From the IMG/VR virus record IMGVR_UViG_3300009026_001181, positions 1 through 30,562 of that record: a stretch of DNA of 30,562 nucleotides; one strand, 5' to 3'. Numbering within the stretch: the stretch's first letter is position 1; every line of letters begins with the position of its first letter. Both the position numbers and the translations under genes were made by a program. The notes below the pieces were generated by a model. That model was not told the origin of the DNA. It saw only the letters and a program-made list of their open reading frames with translations, and searched no databases. Source of the DNA: a virus. This document shows positions 16,925 through 28,273 of this stretch, one piece after another.

Positions 16925-17040
16925 ATGAAACTCGGCCCAAAATATTTTTATAAATCTTAATATTTTTTGTAAAAAATACATTCATCTGAGATAAATAATA
17001 TCAAATGATTGGAAAAGGATCAGAATTAAAAGAGAACGAA

Positions 17041-18264
17041 ATGCATAAAGCATTTAAGTTCCGTTTGCTTCCTACAAAGGAGCAGGAAGTTCTTTTGGCA
17101 AAGCATTTTGGCTGTTCAAGATTCATCTATAATCATTTTTTAGCTGAAAAACAGAAGCATTATTTGGAAAACAAAGAGACACTAAAATTCAATGTTTGTC
17201 AAAATATGCTTATTAAGCAGAAAAAAGATGAAGGATATGAATGGTTAAAAGAAGTTAATTCTCAATGTTTAGTAGCGACATTGGTCAATTTAGAGACATC
17301 ATATACAAACTTTTTCAAGAAAAAATCTAAATTTCCTCGTTTTAAATCGAAAAGGAACAAAAACTCGTTTCAGATCCCTCAACACGTAACTTTAAAAGAG
17401 CATAACGTAGTTCAAATACCAAAGTTCAAAGAAGGCTTAAAATTTGTTAAGCACAGAGAATTAAAAGGAGAAATTAAGAGTGCAACTATTTCTAAAACCC
17501 CTTCTGGTAAATACTACATTTCATTTCTTTGTGTTGTAGAAAAAACAACTAAACACAAAAAGACAGGGAAGAGTATTGGAATCGATTTAGGGCTAAAGGA
17601 CTTTCTTATTACTTCAGAAGGACAAAGGTACTGTAATCCTAAGTTCACTAAAAAGTACGAGGTTAAGTTAGCAAAAAAACAAAGAATTTTAAGTAGAAAA
17701 GAAAAAGGATCAAAAGGAAGATACAAAGCTCGTTTGAGCGTTGCTAAAGTGCATGAGAAGATAACCAATTCTCGTAATGATATGCAACACAAAGTCTCCT
17801 CCAAACTAGTAAAAGACTATGATCTGATTGCAATAGAAGACTTGAACGTAAAGGGAATGGTTAAAAACCATAAGCTGTCTAAAGCAATATCAGATGTAGC
17901 ATGGAGTAGTTTTGTCTCCAAATTAAAGTACAAAGCACAATGGAATGACAAAGAAGTGATCGTTATAGATCGCTTCTATCCGTCTTCCAAAACATGTAGT
18001 TGCTGTGATCATGTCAAAGAAAGCCTTTCATTAGATGAAAGGACTTGGACTTGTTCTAAATGCGACACAATACATGATAGAGATGTTAATGCAAGTAAGA
18101 ATATTTTGCGTAGAGCATTAGCAATTCAATCGACAGGAACTGTCGATAACAGGAATGGAGCTAAGGTAAGACCAGAGGTTGTTTCTAAAGCAACTAAAGG
18201 CACTGGCGTTGAAGTTCTTAAAAAGAAGGGTAGAATTTATACCCTGAAGCCAGTAGGTCTTTAG
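17041..18264 (+). CDS. tnpB: TnpB RNA-guided nuclease (IS605 OrfB)
   Basis: I start at ATG 17041 (MHKAFKFRLLPTKEQ, the canonical TnpB N-terminus; 407 aa). An upstream ATG at 17005 would add MIGKGSELKENE, with a GATAAATA motif 7 bases before it. The RuvC-like motifs are intact: GIDLGLKDF (first Asp), AIEDLNVKGM (Glu) and HDRDVNASKNIL (last Asp). A CxxC...CxxC zinc finger lies between (SCCDHV, CSKCDT). TnpB uses omega RNA from the element's right end to cut DNA at a TAM-flanked target, which favours retention of the element. The gene looks complete and functional. Expression from a phage late promoter is possible. Confidence 0.92.
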   Translation: MHKAFKFRLLPTKEQEVLLAKHFGCSRFIYNHFLAEKQKHYLENKETLKFNVCQNMLIKQKKDEGYEWLKEVNSQCLVATLVNLETSYTNFFKKKSKFPRFKSKRNKNSFQIPQHVTLKEHNVVQIPKFKEGLKFVKHRELKGEIKSATISKTPSGKYYISFLCVVEKTTKHKKTGKSIGIDLGLKDFLITSEGQRYCNPKFTKKYEVKLAKKQRILSRKEKGSKGRYKARLSVAKVHEKITNSRNDMQHKVSSKLVKDYDLIAIEDLNVKGMVKNHKLSKAISDVAWSSFVSKLKYKAQWNDKEVIVIDRFYPSSKTCSCCDHVKESLSLDERTWTCSKCDTIHDRDVNASKNILRRALAIQSTGTVDNRNGAKVRPEVVSKATKGTGVEVLKKKGRIYTLKPVGL

Positions 18265-18495: not shown

Positions 18496-20061
18496 ATGCG
18501 AAGCAAAGACCAAATATTATTGGAAAGTCTTTATGAAAGGATTCTCCTGAAAGAAGATGATGAATTTTCCAATAAGTGGAACAATGCATTGAATGCTTCC
18601 GAAGAATTAGCAAATGCAGTTGATTTGATGAAGAATATTAAATCCATATTTCCAAGTGGTGAAATATATATAGTAGGTGGAGTGCCAAGAGATTTGTTGA
18701 TGGGTAATGAAGTAGATGATGTTGATCTTGCGACAAATATACCATTTGAAAAATTAGAAAACAAGTTTGAAATAAGAAACATATCCAAAAACGATTCTCA
18801 ACCAGTTTATGATATTAAGTGGAGGGACTATCATTACGATTTGGCGAAGTTTAGAACCGATTCTGGTAATATTGGAAGACAAAACAACGTATCAACAGAA
18901 ACAGATTCTTTTCAAAAAGATACAGAAAGAAGAGACTTAACAATTAATTCATTTGGTATAGATGAGAATGGAAATATAATAGACCATCAAAATGGTCTGG
19001 ATGATTTAAAAAACAAAATTGTTCGTGCTGTTGGCGATCCAAAGAAGAGATTCATGGAAGATGCCACGAGAATTTTAAGGGTTTTTAGGTTTGCGGCAAA
19101 GATGGGGTTTGATCTAGATCAACAAACAAGAAATGCCGCTGTTGATTTGAAGGATATTCTTTTAAATCCAGAACTTATATCATCTGAAAGTATTGCGAAA
19201 GAATTTTATAAATCGGCAAAGAGTGGAAAAACTTTAATGCAATTTTTGAAAATGTTACAGGATAATAAAATATTACATGATATTATTCCAGAATTTACGT
19301 CAATGGAGGGATTTATGCATAATCCTAAACATCACCCCGAAGGAGAATCCAGAGTTCTTGGTCATATATATGAATGCTTGTCTGTTTCTCCATTTACAGA
19401 TCCTGTTATAAATCTTGCGATATTGTTTCATGATTTTGGAAAAGCAACAACAAGGGAGGAGAAAGAAGGGCAATCAACATATCATGGGCATGAAGAAGCT
19501 GGTGTTCCTATAGTGGAGAATATTTTTAAAAGATTGGTATTTAATGATCTATCAGCCGAAGATAAAAAAAATATTTTACAAGCTGTTGCAAAACATATGC
19601 TTGTTCATAATCTTGATAATCTTAATATAAAAACATTATCCAGACTCATACTTGATCCATCTTGGAATATTGTAAAATCGGTTGCATATTGTGATGAGGC
19701 ATCGAGAGGAATTTCGCATTTTGATAAAAAGGAATTTGAAGAAAAAATAAAAAGAGCTGAAGAAAAAGTTTCTAATTTGGGTGGGGATAGTGAAGACTTG
19801 AGAAGAAAAATTAAACAATACATAGATGGTGGAAAAATTATGAAGTGGTATCCAGAAACACATCAGAAACCAAAATTTGGAATACTATTAAAAAAAGCAC
19901 AAGATTATGTTTTGGAACTTTTGAATTCAAACGAGGAACCGAATGATGAAATGCTAAAAAAATATACAGATTCTGTTTATAATGAATCTTTTATACATTT
20001 TACATTTAAAGACTTTTTAACTATTAAATCCGTTCATCTATTAGAGAATCCTATCTATTAG
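18496..20061 (+). CDS. cca: CCA-adding tRNA nucleotidyltransferase with HD domain, tagged
   Basis: The protein has 521 residues. The leader MRSKDQILLESLYERILLKE is the same type as at 15476. The enzyme begins at about residue 40: IYIVGGVPRDLLMG (nucleotidyltransferase GG motif), VDDVDLAT with catalytic Asp75 and Asp77, RRDLTINSFGID (about 155), and FMEDATRILRVFRFAAKMGF, the class II CCA-enzyme head and neck. An HD domain follows (AILFHDFGKATTRE, YHGHEEAG), as in E. coli Cca. The enzyme adds or repairs the 3' CCA of tRNAs using CTP and ATP. Four of the five intact tRNAs in this window lack encoded CCA. The leader suggests that the enzyme is packaged and enters with the DNA. The last 14 codons coincide with a repeat copy. 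Confidence 0.88.
   Translation: MRSKDQILLESLYERILLKEDDEFSNKWNNALNASEELANAVDLMKNIKSIFPSGEIYIVGGVPRDLLMGNEVDDVDLATNIPFEKLENKFEIRNISKNDSQPVYDIKWRDYHYDLAKFRTDSGNIGRQNNVSTETDSFQKDTERRDLTINSFGIDENGNIIDHQNGLDDLKNKIVRAVGDPKKRFMEDATRILRVFRFAAKMGFDLDQQTRNAAVDLKDILLNPELISSESIAKEFYKSAKSGKTLMQFLKMLQDNKILHDIIPEFTSMEGFMHNPKHHPEGESRVLGHIYECLSVSPFTDPVINLAILFHDFGKATTREEKEGQSTYHGHEEAGVPIVENIFKRLVFNDLSAEDKKNILQAVAKHMLVHNLDNLNIKTLSRLILDPSWNIVKSVAYCDEASRGISHFDKKEFEEKIKRAEEKVSNLGGDSEDLRRKIKQYIDGGKIMKWYPETHQKPKFGILLKKAQDYVLELLNSNEEPNDEMLKKYTDSVYNESFIHFTFKDFLTIKSVHLLENPIY
20022..20049 (+). repeat. 28-bp direct repeat, right copy
   Basis: Identical to 18448-18475. It encodes part of the CCA-enzyme C-terminus (IKSVHLLEN). 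Confidence 0.88.
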
Positions 20062-25770: not shown

Positions 25771-25799
25771 GGTTCCCGATGATCCAGATAAAAAAATCG
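25771..25799 (+). repeat. 29-base structured repeat, copy 1
   Basis: GGTTCCCGATGATCCAGAT then A-rich bases and ATCG. It matches 26348-26376 at 27 of 29 positions. A related CTTGTAAAA...ATTGGAAT element follows each copy at variable distance. Confidence 0.75.
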
Positions 25800-26050
25800 G
25801 AAGCAAGAAACCAGTCTTGTAAAACATTGGAATTGATTTTTGATATTTTGTTTTTGCTGGTTAGGGGAAAGGTGGGATCATTCCTCGTCCTGTAAGTTTC
25901 TAGAAAACGACAAAGGCTTACCCTAATTGGCATATTTTTACCAAGCGCATAAGACCGCAAATCTATCCCGCGAGAGATGACAATGCAATGAGTTGCAAAT
26001 CAACATTTAGTCTCTAAGGAACTTCTCCTGTTGTTAGTGGTAGCAATGTC
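25771..26050 (+). ncRNA. Candidate structured RNA upstream of the tRNAs
   Basis: This gene-free stretch of about 330 bases (25761-26095) has no convincing ORF but several stems: CGAT...ATCG at 25777-25799, TGCAA-TGAG-TTGCA at 25984-25997 nested inside AGAGA (25973-25977)/TCTCT (26011-26015), and a long-range GTTAGGG/CCCTAA-type pairing around 25860 and 25921. The 5' end is repeated at 26348. T4 has two stable small RNAs of unknown role beside its tRNAs; this could be comparable. No known family is recognised. Confidence 0.35.
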
Positions 26051-26095
26051 ACGAAACAAGTGAATGAGAGGTCTTGGTGAATAAATATTTTATAT

Positions 26096-26168
26096 TGCGG
26101 GTTACAATTCTGGCGAATTGGAATGTCTCATAAGCATTTTTAGGTGGATTCGATTTCCACACCCGCTA
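26096..26168 (+). tRNA. tRNA-Met (CAU)
   Basis: The 73-base cloverleaf has D stem CAAT/ATTG, anticodon stem AATGT/GCATT with loop CTCATAA (anticodon CAT), and T stem GTGGA/TCCAC with loop TTCGATT. The acceptor pairs 2-7 with 66-71, while the outermost 1-72 is T-T. An unpaired 1-72 recalls initiator tRNA, but the three G-C pairs of an initiator anticodon stem are absent. Elongator Met or an Ile tRNA with modified C34 are alternatives. CCA is not encoded. Confidence 0.85.
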
Positions 26169-26177
26169 ATTTTAGTA

Positions 26178-26249
26178 TGGTATGTAGCTCAAATGCAAGA
26201 GTCCTACATTGTAGGTAGGAGGTTATGGGTTAAAGTCCCATCATACCAG
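26178..26249 (+). tRNA. tRNA-Thr (UGU)
   Basis: Acceptor TGGTATG/CATACCA is perfect. Anticodon stem CCTAC/GTAGG with loop ATTGTAG (anticodon TGT), T stem ATGGG/CCCAT. The D arm is slightly unusual (loop without GG, base 26 apparently missing; 72 bases). CCA is not encoded. Confidence 0.82.
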
Positions 26250-26255
26250 AAAAAC

Positions 26256-26331
26256 TGATGCGTAGCACAGAGGTAGTTGCATCCGCCTGTTAAGCGGAAT
26301 GTCGTTGGTTCGATCCCAACCGCATCAGCCA
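26256..26331 (+). tRNA. tRNA-Asn (GUU)
   Basis: Acceptor TGATGCG/CGCATCA is perfect. D loop AGAGGTAG, anticodon stem TCCGC/GCGGA with loop CTGTTAA (anticodon GTT), T stem GTTGG/CCAAC, discriminator G. CCA follows at 26329-26331, the only encoded CCA in the cluster. Confidence 0.93.
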
Positions 26332-26347
26332 AATTTAGATTGAAAAA

Positions 26348-26376
26348 GGTTCTCGATGATCCAGATGAAAAAATCG
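26348..26376 (+). repeat. 29-base structured repeat, copy 2
   Basis: Second copy of 25771-25799. One of the two differences turns the C-G pair next to the CGAT/ATCG stem into T-A together with a change on the other side just outside the repeat, so pairing is kept. Confidence 0.75.
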
Positions 26377-26503
26377 AAAAATAGTTCTTGCTATTGTTAG
26401 TGAAAGCAGATAATATATTGGGAGTAATGAAGGTTACCCAAACCTTGTAAAAATAATTGGAATATATTTTTGAAAGAATAGGTAGAGAAAATAATTTACA
26501 TTA

Positions 26504-26588
26504 GCTGATGTGGCGGAACTGGTTATACGCAACAGACTTAAAATCTGTCGCCCATTTGGGCATGAGGATTCGACTTCCTCCATCAGCA
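26504..26588 (+). tRNA. tRNA-Leu (UAA)
   Basis: Acceptor GCTGATG/CATCAGC is perfect. Anticodon stem ACAGA/TCTGT with loop CTTAAAA (anticodon TAA). A long variable arm has stem GCCC/GGGC, as expected for Leu. T stem GAGGA/TCCTC, discriminator A. CCA is not encoded. 85 bases. Confidence 0.94.
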
Positions 26589-26599
26589 CTTTTTAAATT

Positions 26600-26951
26600 G
26601 GGGGAGTAGCTTAATGGTTAAAGCAGTTAAAAAAAGCTGGCTGTTTCGTATCGTGAGATACGTTGATTGCAATACTGATAGATGCGGCTCATAGTATTGT
26701 GACCATAAGGAGTGATCCTTATTGGAAAACTGGATGAACTCAAAGAAAGCCTATGAATAATAGGTCAACATTGAGCCAAGCCAAGAATACATTCTTGGAA
26801 GGTGCAGAGACTACTTGAGAGGTATAGTCCTCTTAATAACAAGATTAAGCGTCCAGCAACTCTTAAATGAGTTGAAGATATAGTCCATGAAGTATGGTAA
26901 CATACACAAACATAAACTGATTGAGTGTCGGTTCGATCCCGACCTCCCCCA
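26600..26951 (+). tRNA. Intron-split tRNA-like gene, anticodon not resolved
   Basis: The 5' part has GGGGGAG, TA and a good D arm GCTT-AATGGTTA-AAGC. The 3' part has T arm GTCGG-TTCGATC-CCGAC, then CTCCCCC (perfect acceptor) and A. Between them lies a group I intron. With the best splice sites (after 26628 and after 26919) only about 61 bases remain, some 12 short of a tRNA, and no canonical anticodon arm forms. Either a splice site is misplaced or the gene is degenerate. CCA is not encoded. Confidence 0.6.
26629..26919 (+). other. Group I intron (about 291 bases, no ORF)
   Basis: P1 pairs the 5' exon end AAGCAGTT (26621-26628) with GGCTGTTT (26639-26646), 8 pairs with U-G at the splice site. 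P2 is CGTATC-GTGA-GATACG (26647-26662). Element R is TGCAGAGACTAC (26803-26814) and element S is AAGATATAGTCC (26875-26886), joined by P7 pairing GACTA/TAGTC. P9 is GTATG-GTAA-CATAC (26892-26905). The likely terminal G is at 26919. R and S are near-consensus for self-splicing group I introns such as T4 td. The 3' boundary is the least certain part. Confidence 0.88.
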
Positions 26952-26971
26952 CTTAAAATACTAATAATCAA

Positions 26972-27044
26972 GTCCCTGTGATGTAATCGGATAGCATAAG
27001 GCTCTTCTAAAGCCTTCGACCAGATTCAAGTTCTGGCAGGGACA
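26972..27044 (+). tRNA. tRNA-Arg (UCU)
   Basis: Acceptor GTCCCTG/CAGGGAC is perfect. D stem ATG/CAT with GG in the loop, anticodon stem AGGCT/AGCCT with loop CTTCTAA (anticodon TCT), T stem CCAGA/TCTGG, discriminator A. CCA is not encoded. It reads AGA, a codon common in this AT-rich genome. Confidence 0.93.
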
Positions 27045-27099
27045 TTATTTTAATTTTCCGTTATTGTATGAAATAATGGTTGAGAAATTTCTTCAATAG

Positions 27100-27107
27100 A
27101 CTAAATA
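27100..27107 (+). promoter_or_regulatory. Late-promoter-like motif ACTAAATA
   Basis: Lies 5 bases before ATG 27113, the same spacing as at the tagged genes. Two mismatches to the consensus. Confidence 0.4.
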
Positions 27108-27112
27108 ATTAT

Positions 27113-28273
27113 ATGGATAAACTTAAACTAATCGAACTGGTAGATTCTGGTATGACTCAAAGAGAAATATCAGAACAAATGAATTGCTCACAAACCAATA
27201 TAAAATATTGGATGAAAAAATATAATTTAAAAAGTAAAAACTTCCAAATTGGCGAAAAGAATTTTTATTCAAGTGATAGATTTTTAGAAAAAGAAAAAAA
27301 TAATTTAAATTGGAATTTCAATGATATTCAAAAATCTTATGATTCTGGATTGAGTTGGAGAGAAGTTAGTAAAATACAAAATATCTCACCCGCGAGCATT
27401 TTCAATAAAATAAGTCAAGGTTTTTTGAAAAGTAGAAATTTATCAGAATCAGCTAAATTAAAAAGAATCAATAATCAATACAAACATACGGAAGAAACTA
27501 AAAAGAAAATATCAGAAGCAAGAAAAAAATGGTTGACTGAAAATCCAGACAAACACCCTTGGCAAAATAAATCATTTGTCCATTCATCAATACCATGTGA
27601 AAAATTTAAATCCTTTCTAAGAGAACAAAAAATAGATTTTATAGAAGAATTTATGCCTCTTGTTCATATAGGTAGATTTTTTAGAATTGACATTGCATTT
27701 CCAGATAAAAAAATTGGGATAGAAGTGAATGGTAATCAACACTATGAATCAAACGGAGAATTAAAACCATATTACAAAAATAGAGAATCTCTTTTAGAAG
27801 AACATGGTTGGATTACATATCAAATTCATCATACAGGTTGTTTCAATATGGAAAAATTGTCAGAATTTATGGAACAGATCAAAAATAGTGAAAAGAAAAT
27901 TGAATTTGATTATTTCAATTATGTTCCAAGAGAAAAGAAGAAGTATTTCTGTTCATGTGGAAATACGATAACGAATAAAGCAAAAAAATGTGAGTCTTGC
28001 GCTCGTTTGGATATGCGAAAGGTTAAAAACAGACCTTCAAAAAATGAATTAAAAAAACTCATTTGGGAAAAACCTATTACTGAATTGGGTAAAATATTTG
28101 GAGTTTCCGACAATGCTGTTAGGAAATGGTGTAAAGCATACGGAATAACGAATTTACCATCACGATCATTTCGAGCGAAAGAATATGCCAAAAAAACAAA
28201 AACCCAATTCAAAAGAAATTCTAAAATACCTCAAATTCCTAAAATCCATTCGCAAAAAACCAATTTCAAATGA
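27113..28273 (+). CDS. Vsr-like (PD-(D/E)xK) homing-type endonuclease
   Basis: The protein has 386 residues from ATG 27113; an upstream TTG at 27080 is less likely. Domains in order are an N-terminal HTH (MDKLKLIELVDSGMTQREIS), a second HTH-like unit (about 60-95), a NUMOD3-like segment (HTEETKKKISEARKKW), and a nuclease core with RFFRIDIAFPDKKIGIEVNG then NQHYE and HGWITYQIHHTGCF, the Vsr/EDxHD pattern of PD-(D/E)xK nucleases. A zinc ribbon (CSCG...CESC) and a last HTH (FGVSDNAVRKWCKAYGI) follow. Such proteins cut at a specific site and spread themselves or a neighbouring intron. It starts only 69 bases after the tRNA cluster. Confidence 0.82.
   Translation: MDKLKLIELVDSGMTQREISEQMNCSQTNIKYWMKKYNLKSKNFQIGEKNFYSSDRFLEKEKNNLNWNFNDIQKSYDSGLSWREVSKIQNISPASIFNKISQGFLKSRNLSESAKLKRINNQYKHTEETKKKISEARKKWLTENPDKHPWQNKSFVHSSIPCEKFKSFLREQKIDFIEEFMPLVHIGRFFRIDIAFPDKKIGIEVNGNQHYESNGELKPYYKNRESLLEEHGWITYQIHHTGCFNMEKLSEFMEQIKNSEKKIEFDYFNYVPREKKKYFCSCGNTITNKAKKCESCARLDMRKVKNRPSKNELKKLIWEKPITELGKIFGVSDNAVRKWCKAYGITNLPSRSFRAKEYAKKTKTQFKRNSKIPQIPKIHSQKTNFK

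Follow-up and report, generated by a model that had tools for sequence, protein, structure and literature searches.

The stretch of viral DNA analyzed here (30,562 nucleotides, hereafter the window) constitutes a 30.6-kb virus record. It encodes RIIA and RIIB, PhoH, and a CCA-adding enzyme, and its tRNA cluster spans positions 26095 to 27044. Within this cluster, a composite tRNA gene of 352 nt occupies positions 26600 to 26951 of the plus strand. The preliminary description had placed one group I intron between good tRNA halves at this position. The halves were confirmed at 26600 to 26627 and 26915 to 26951, with the acceptor strands GGGGGAG and CTCCCCC, the D arm, and the T arm, and the intron was borne out as real by the Rfam group I model; the single interrupted segment was not, as two segments were present. 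The locus thus appears to be a phage tRNA(CAU) gene interrupted twice, by a core-less intron (intron a) and then by a complete intron (intron b), around an 8-nt micro-exon. It was compared with contig IMGVR_UViG_3300023184_000424 (L005/L002), which is near-identical over this locus and ends within the gene, and with 3300042305_002088 (L009; 103 kb) and 3300023179_000512 (L108); as L005 is close to a copy of the window, the really distinct sequences number three. The gene is divided as follows.

26600 to 26627, plus strand: exon 1, tRNA positions 1 to 28 (acceptor 5' strand and D arm), ending in U28; based on acceptor and D-arm pairs that change on both sides among relatives and on ARAGORN with the joined product
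26628 to 26684, plus strand: intron a, 57 nt, preceded by U and with G (omega-G) as its last base, without a P3-P8 core; boundaries derived from rejoining and kept in L005, L009, and L108
26685 to 26692, plus strand: micro-exon CGGCUCAU, tRNA positions 29 to 36, with anticodon CAU
26693 to 26914, plus strand: intron b, 222 nt, an IA-like complete group I intron that follows position 36 and has A26914 (omega-A) as its last base; based on RF00028 and a 3' end that aligns with omega-G introns, e.g., L098, L063, and L020
26915 to 26951, plus strand: exon 3, tRNA positions 37 to 73; based on ARAGORN with the joined product and on paired arms

Several other features of the window were recorded. The gene at 18496 to 20061 (plus strand) encodes a tRNA nucleotidyltransferase of the CCA-adding type by PHROGs, and the composite tRNA gene encodes no CCA. 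Directly after the tRNA cluster, the gene at 27080 to 28273 (plus strand) matches HNH endonuclease and DNA-binding PHROGs, and its product is likely a free-standing homing endonuclease. An AT-rich element lies between tRNA genes at 26343 to 26505, with a partial repeat upstream (25771 to 25802), and is also found in L002 (12277 to 12440 and 11925 to 11961). A transposase PHROG match (phrog_506) was found amid phage genes at 17005 to 18264 (plus strand).

The rejoined tRNA and its exon boundaries

In the raw window sequence, the default ARAGORN search called no tRNA at the composite gene. Removal of both 26628 to 26684 and 26693 to 26914 yielded a complete 73-nt tRNA(CAU) in the window, L009, and L108 (called tRNA-Met(cat) by ARAGORN), the product in each forming a cloverleaf with a 5-bp anticodon stem, U33, a 7-nt loop, and a 5-nt variable loop. 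Two anticodon-stem pairs (G30.U40 or G30-C40, and G31-C39 or G31.U39) varied on one side with pairing kept. The G1-C72 pair speaks against an initiator tRNA, and the product may be of the elongator Met or of the Ile2 (AUA) type.

The lack of a canonical tRNA or anticodon arm that had been remarked on for the best splice sites was found to extend to every single join in the window and its relatives. An ARAGORN enumeration of single joins returned approximately 1,000 “tRNAs,” mainly with unrelated loops, and was too permissive. Among the double-removal joins giving a 73-nt product, three restored the 5-bp stem in the window; the join at 28/85 (28/80 in L009 and L108) was the only one that combined a 5-bp stem, a preceding U, and a final G in all three sequences. 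Of the other candidate boundaries, 30/87 fitted the window and gave a mismatch in L009, and 29/86 restored the stem, but the piece removed ended in C, without the final G. On these sequence grounds, the case for the double join as the genuine product is strong. The anticodon loop that had been thought missing is therefore in place: its 5' part, CUCAU, lies at 26688 to 26692, and the puzzle arose because the anticodon sits inside the supposed intron. Of the two explanations originally offered, the use of an unusual splice site gained support, and the notion of a minimal or defective tRNA-like RNA is not the preferred one, since double removal yields a complete tRNA(CAU) in all three distinct sequences.

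Structure of the two intervening segments

The predicted pairings and guides, all on the plus strand, were the following.

26621 to 26627 with 26640 to 26646, plus strand: P1a, 7 bp, with a U26627.G26640 wobble at the 5' splice site
26635 to 26639, plus strand: P10a guide AGCUG, directly 5' of the P1a guide, pairing over 5 bp with micro-exon CGGCU (26685 to 26689)
26647 to 26662, plus strand: P2a hairpin CGUAUC-GUGA-GAUACG, with a two-sided C-G to U-A change in L009/L108
26669 to 26677 with 26692 to 26700, plus strand: P2.1, 9 bp, with its 5' strand in intron a
26699 to 26702, plus strand: internal guide of intron b (IGS-b), GUGA, forming P1b with micro-exon UCAU, including U26692.G26699
26705 to 26722, plus strand: P2b hairpin AUAAGGA-GUGA-UCCUUAU, four pairs of which show two-sided changes
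26809 to 26885, plus strand: catalytic core with P7 (26809 to 26813 with 26881 to 26885), P3', and P8; RF00028, paired changes
26887 to 26913, plus strand: P9.0 (AUG at 26887 to 26889 with CAU at 26911 to 26913) and P9 (26892 to 26905)

The RF00028 match extended from 26681 to 26907 on the plus strand and scored 84.6 bits (gathering score, 50). The P2, P7, and P9 helices named in the preliminary description were all recovered, and the core helices of intron b were kept with paired changes among relatives. The U.G pair of P1b at the 5' splice site (UCAU/GUGA) was present in all four sequences. GGCUCAU (26686 to 26692) is followed by the GUGA guide, the P2 hairpin, and GAAAACUGG, and this layout, with a splice site after CUCAU and an intron carrying its own guide and P2, matches that of ordinary phage tRNA(CAU) introns (L028, L063, L113, and others). 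The 3' exon after P9.0, AACUGAU..., is also as in those introns, the last intron base being A where theirs is G. P9.0, which is ACG:CGU in L009/L108, fixes omega at A26914; G26919 and G26923 were rejected as omega because both P9.0 and the alignment with omega-G relatives point to A26914. The terminal base was A in the window, L005, L009, and L108 and G in 27 other phage tRNA introns, so that intron b lacks omega-G. Omega-G is usual and not strictly defining, as indicated by a self-splicing Coxiella intron without it (Raghavan 2007, as cited in PMC11270868 and PMC3428280), and omega-A marks a variant. By its predicted structure, intron b is a complete group I intron with omega-A.

Intron a, 57 nt in the window and 52 nt in L009/L108, has the boundaries of a group I intron (a preceding U, a final G, and a P1 and P10 guide) and lacks the P3-P8 core of an autonomous one. 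The pairing of GCAGU with GCUGU that had been described as P1 exists; as P1a, it was 100% paired in the four sequences and reached 9 bp in L009, alongside a 5-bp P10. A P1 of at least 7 bp together with a P10 of at least 5 bp arose in a fraction of 8.5e-5 of 200,000 shuffled inserts. The P2a loop is GUGA, and GCGA in L108. No P3-P8 core helix was found in intron a, of which the RF00028 match, starting at 26681, reaches only the last four bases, and no Rfam family reached its gathering score or was plausible at an E value of ≤10 for the 57-nt piece. Intron a thus bears putative group I splice signals (a U.G 5' site, a guide pairing with both exons, and a final G) and no core.

A second group I core was not found, each contig giving one RF00028 match, including the 103-kb G004, in a set of contigs that may be fragments. 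The locus is therefore neither a pair of tandem complete introns, with a core in each, nor a twintron, with one intron nested in another, as the pieces flank a micro-exon that belongs to the tRNA.

The two segments are bridged by P2.1, whose 3' strand takes in U36 of the micro-exon together with the first bases of intron b, the G of IGS-b among them, and P1b therefore cannot form while P2.1 is formed. From this pairing, we infer that P2.1 would hide the second splice site until intron a has gone. All nine P2.1 pairs were kept in the four sequences, four of them being variable and one changed on both sides. The minimum free energy fold of the 5' region contained P1a, P2a, and P2.1 (z = -3.0), and these helices were 100% paired, compared with 23 to 57% for slid controls. 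Two-sided changes between the window and L009/L108 occurred in P2a, P2.1, P2b, P9.0, and P9; for P1a, P2a, and P2.1 alone, their number was unexceptional in a shuffle control (331 of 500), and the support for these three helices therefore comes from kept pairing. In the fold predicted after removal of intron a, P2.1 is impossible and P1b is also absent; P1b has only 4 bp and depends on the core, which folding programs leave unmodelled. The sequences compared thus establish a two-segment anatomy with conserved candidate splice signals.

Relatives and other phage tRNA introns

Alignment of L009 with the window showed identity at 44 of 52 positions in intron a and at 180 of 212 in intron b. The micro-exon CGGCUCAU was the same in all four sequences, in all of which omega-A also accompanied the insert; a scan for the omega-A pattern found only L009 and L108. 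The window's RIIA was found in the L002 contig (91%) and was absent from the L009 and L108 contigs, which are possibly incomplete, and the tRNA neighbors also differed between the window and these two contigs; the composite gene is therefore probably carried by two or more dissimilar phages. Further searches with the exact tRNA, omega-A, and micro-exon patterns and among phages and plasmids returned only L005/L002, L009, and L108. In GTDB genomes, there was no intron core among the matches listed, and H51 (“tRNA-Pyl”), H41, and H75 showed no composite arrangement on a brief look. Matches in Vibrio and Pseudomonas phages lay within or beside terminase and polymerase genes; in Vibrio phage vB_VpaM_R16F (L327), the terminase large subunit is annotated in four pieces, and at least one of the gaps matches a group I intron core.

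IMG/VR was scanned for T arms preceded by a group I 3' end (GATATAGTC), and the tRNAs were rebuilt. A canonical tRNA was obtained by one join, with a U before and a G at the end of the intron, in 27 of the 29 distinct cases with both tRNA halves. The two that failed were the window (recovered as L001) and L009, with which L108 had been collapsed because of their common 3' end. In phage tRNA genes, the survey revealed no fewer than 27 distinct group I introns, located at several positions in the anticodon loop (e.g., L012, L046, L113, L018, L040, and L083); in a 2014 review, all phage introns then known were in protein genes (PMC3984707). The group I introns of L057, L093, L105, and L120 interrupt opal-reading tRNAs with anticodon UCA (loop CUUCAAC), where an intron would gate a stop-codon-reading tRNA. 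Other odd inserts between tRNA halves were seen in L036 and L099 (a 156-nt span and an insert beside position 31). Phage tRNA genes thus hold many group I introns, and the composite tRNA was one that ARAGORN at default settings missed.

Candidate splicing pathway and relation to known systems

We consider it probable that the locus is a composite group I intron, in which two removed segments flank the anticodon micro-exon, share one core, and leave in a set order. The precursor would fold first with P1a, P2a, and P2.1, so that both the second splice site and the guide that serves it are buried in P2.1. The intron b core would then cut after U26627 using GTP, and exon 1, held by P10a, would attack after G26684, releasing intron a. 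The departure of intron a would remove the 5' strand of P2.1, free IGS-b, and allow P1b to form, after which intron b would splice itself out at U26692 and A26914. It is plausible that the single core performs both reactions, intron a first; the order would matter because the sole core leaves with intron b. In the first round, a direct join between exons 1 and 3 would cost the tRNA its anticodon, and the weak omega-A may prevent it: omega-G is required for efficient 3' splice-site choice, and omega-A may for that reason lower the chance of direct joining. Against this explanation, the comparison draws on three distinct sequences, omega-A slows group I splicing in general, the P10 match is partly owed to a repeated GCUG motif, the invariance of P10a and the micro-exon leaves these without covariation, and the 29/86 boundary also restores the stem.

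Other explanations must be weighed against ordered double removal. A single intron could run from U26627 or U26628 to a downstream G (26919 or 26923), leaving a tRNA-like RNA of 60-odd nt without an anticodon arm. The strong P1a would suit such an intron, and the joined RNA folds as an acceptor and T arm with a rearranged middle; exon skipping is, moreover, documented in phage group I introns (PMC10136302 and PMC11878797). We nevertheless regard this as unlikely, as it throws away a perfectly placed anticodon loop that has its own P1b and P2b and a P10a match, and places the 3' splice site at Gs without a P9.0 when P9.0 sets omega at A26914.

Decay of the gene, through the gain of a 57-nt insertion and an omega mutation by a tRNA(CAU) intron whose tRNA is no longer made, would account for two changes that would each damage an ordinary intron, namely, omega-A and the interruption of the anticodon stem by an insertion. 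Such decay is improbable, if by a little less than the single intron, because the arrangement persists in two diverged phage lineages, where insert and core show paired changes, the tRNA arms are intact, and the micro-exon does not vary. Finally, the 57-nt element could be a regulatory switch in which P1a, P2a, and P2.1 compete with P1b to control intron b, the element being retained or else removed by a host nuclease and ligase. Competition between P2.1 and P1b is clear, and a riboswitch-group I intron pair is known in Clostridioides difficile. We give this account little credence, because no known aptamer family reached its gathering score or was plausible at an E value of ≤10, a retained element would lie in the anticodon stem of the product, and the group I boundary signals on both sides would be left unexplained.

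If ordered removal is correct, one ribozyme would carry out two successive splicing reactions per transcript, first on the core-less piece and then on itself. The locus would offer a simple RNA-only model for ordered splicing and for dependent introns that share a catalyst, an idea often invoked for the origin of spliceosomal introns. No account of a core-less group I intron served by the core of a neighbor was found in the open-access literature, outside which most subscription journals lie. As a further point against the model, the only cores found there to act on a 3' splice site that lies upstream of them belong to engineered ribozymes. We lean, with less assurance than for the composite intron itself, toward regarding the locus as the first natural case in which a core-less group I mini-intron is excised in cis by a neighbor's core, with the order set by a spanning hairpin and a weakened terminal nucleotide.

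The closest natural parallels are the tandem introns of phage Twort and Coxiella burnetii, in both of which the two introns are complete. In the account of tandem introns in PMC10136302, the enclosed exon measures 23 nt in Twort orf142 and 34 nt in Coxiella 23S rRNA, and skipping of the exon is described. The locus shares with them two group I segments around a very short exon and the danger of skipping, and with the Coxiella pair, as cited, one intron lacking omega-G; it differs in that the first segment is core-less and 52 to 57 nt long, the exon is 8 nt, and the gene is a tRNA. Like twintrons and twin-ribozyme introns, it has more than one splicing unit per site and an important order (PMC4167309 and PMC8393795), but the units lie side by side around an exon, are not nested, and have one core. 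Intron b resembles cyanobacterial tRNA-Leu and tRNA-fMet introns in lying in the anticodon loop, here after position 36, whereas those are single introns (PMC3984707). Engineered trans-excision-splicing ribozymes remove internal pieces by means of P1, P9.0, and P10, and in these and in spliceozymes, as proposed here, a group I core, guided by P1 and P10 pairing, excises an internal segment and ligates the flanking RNA (PMC4094466). The engineered ribozymes act in trans on fragments of ≤28 nt, or of 100 nt with a P9.2 guide (PMC4094466), whereas the reaction proposed here would be their natural counterpart, proceeding in cis with the guide inside the piece removed.
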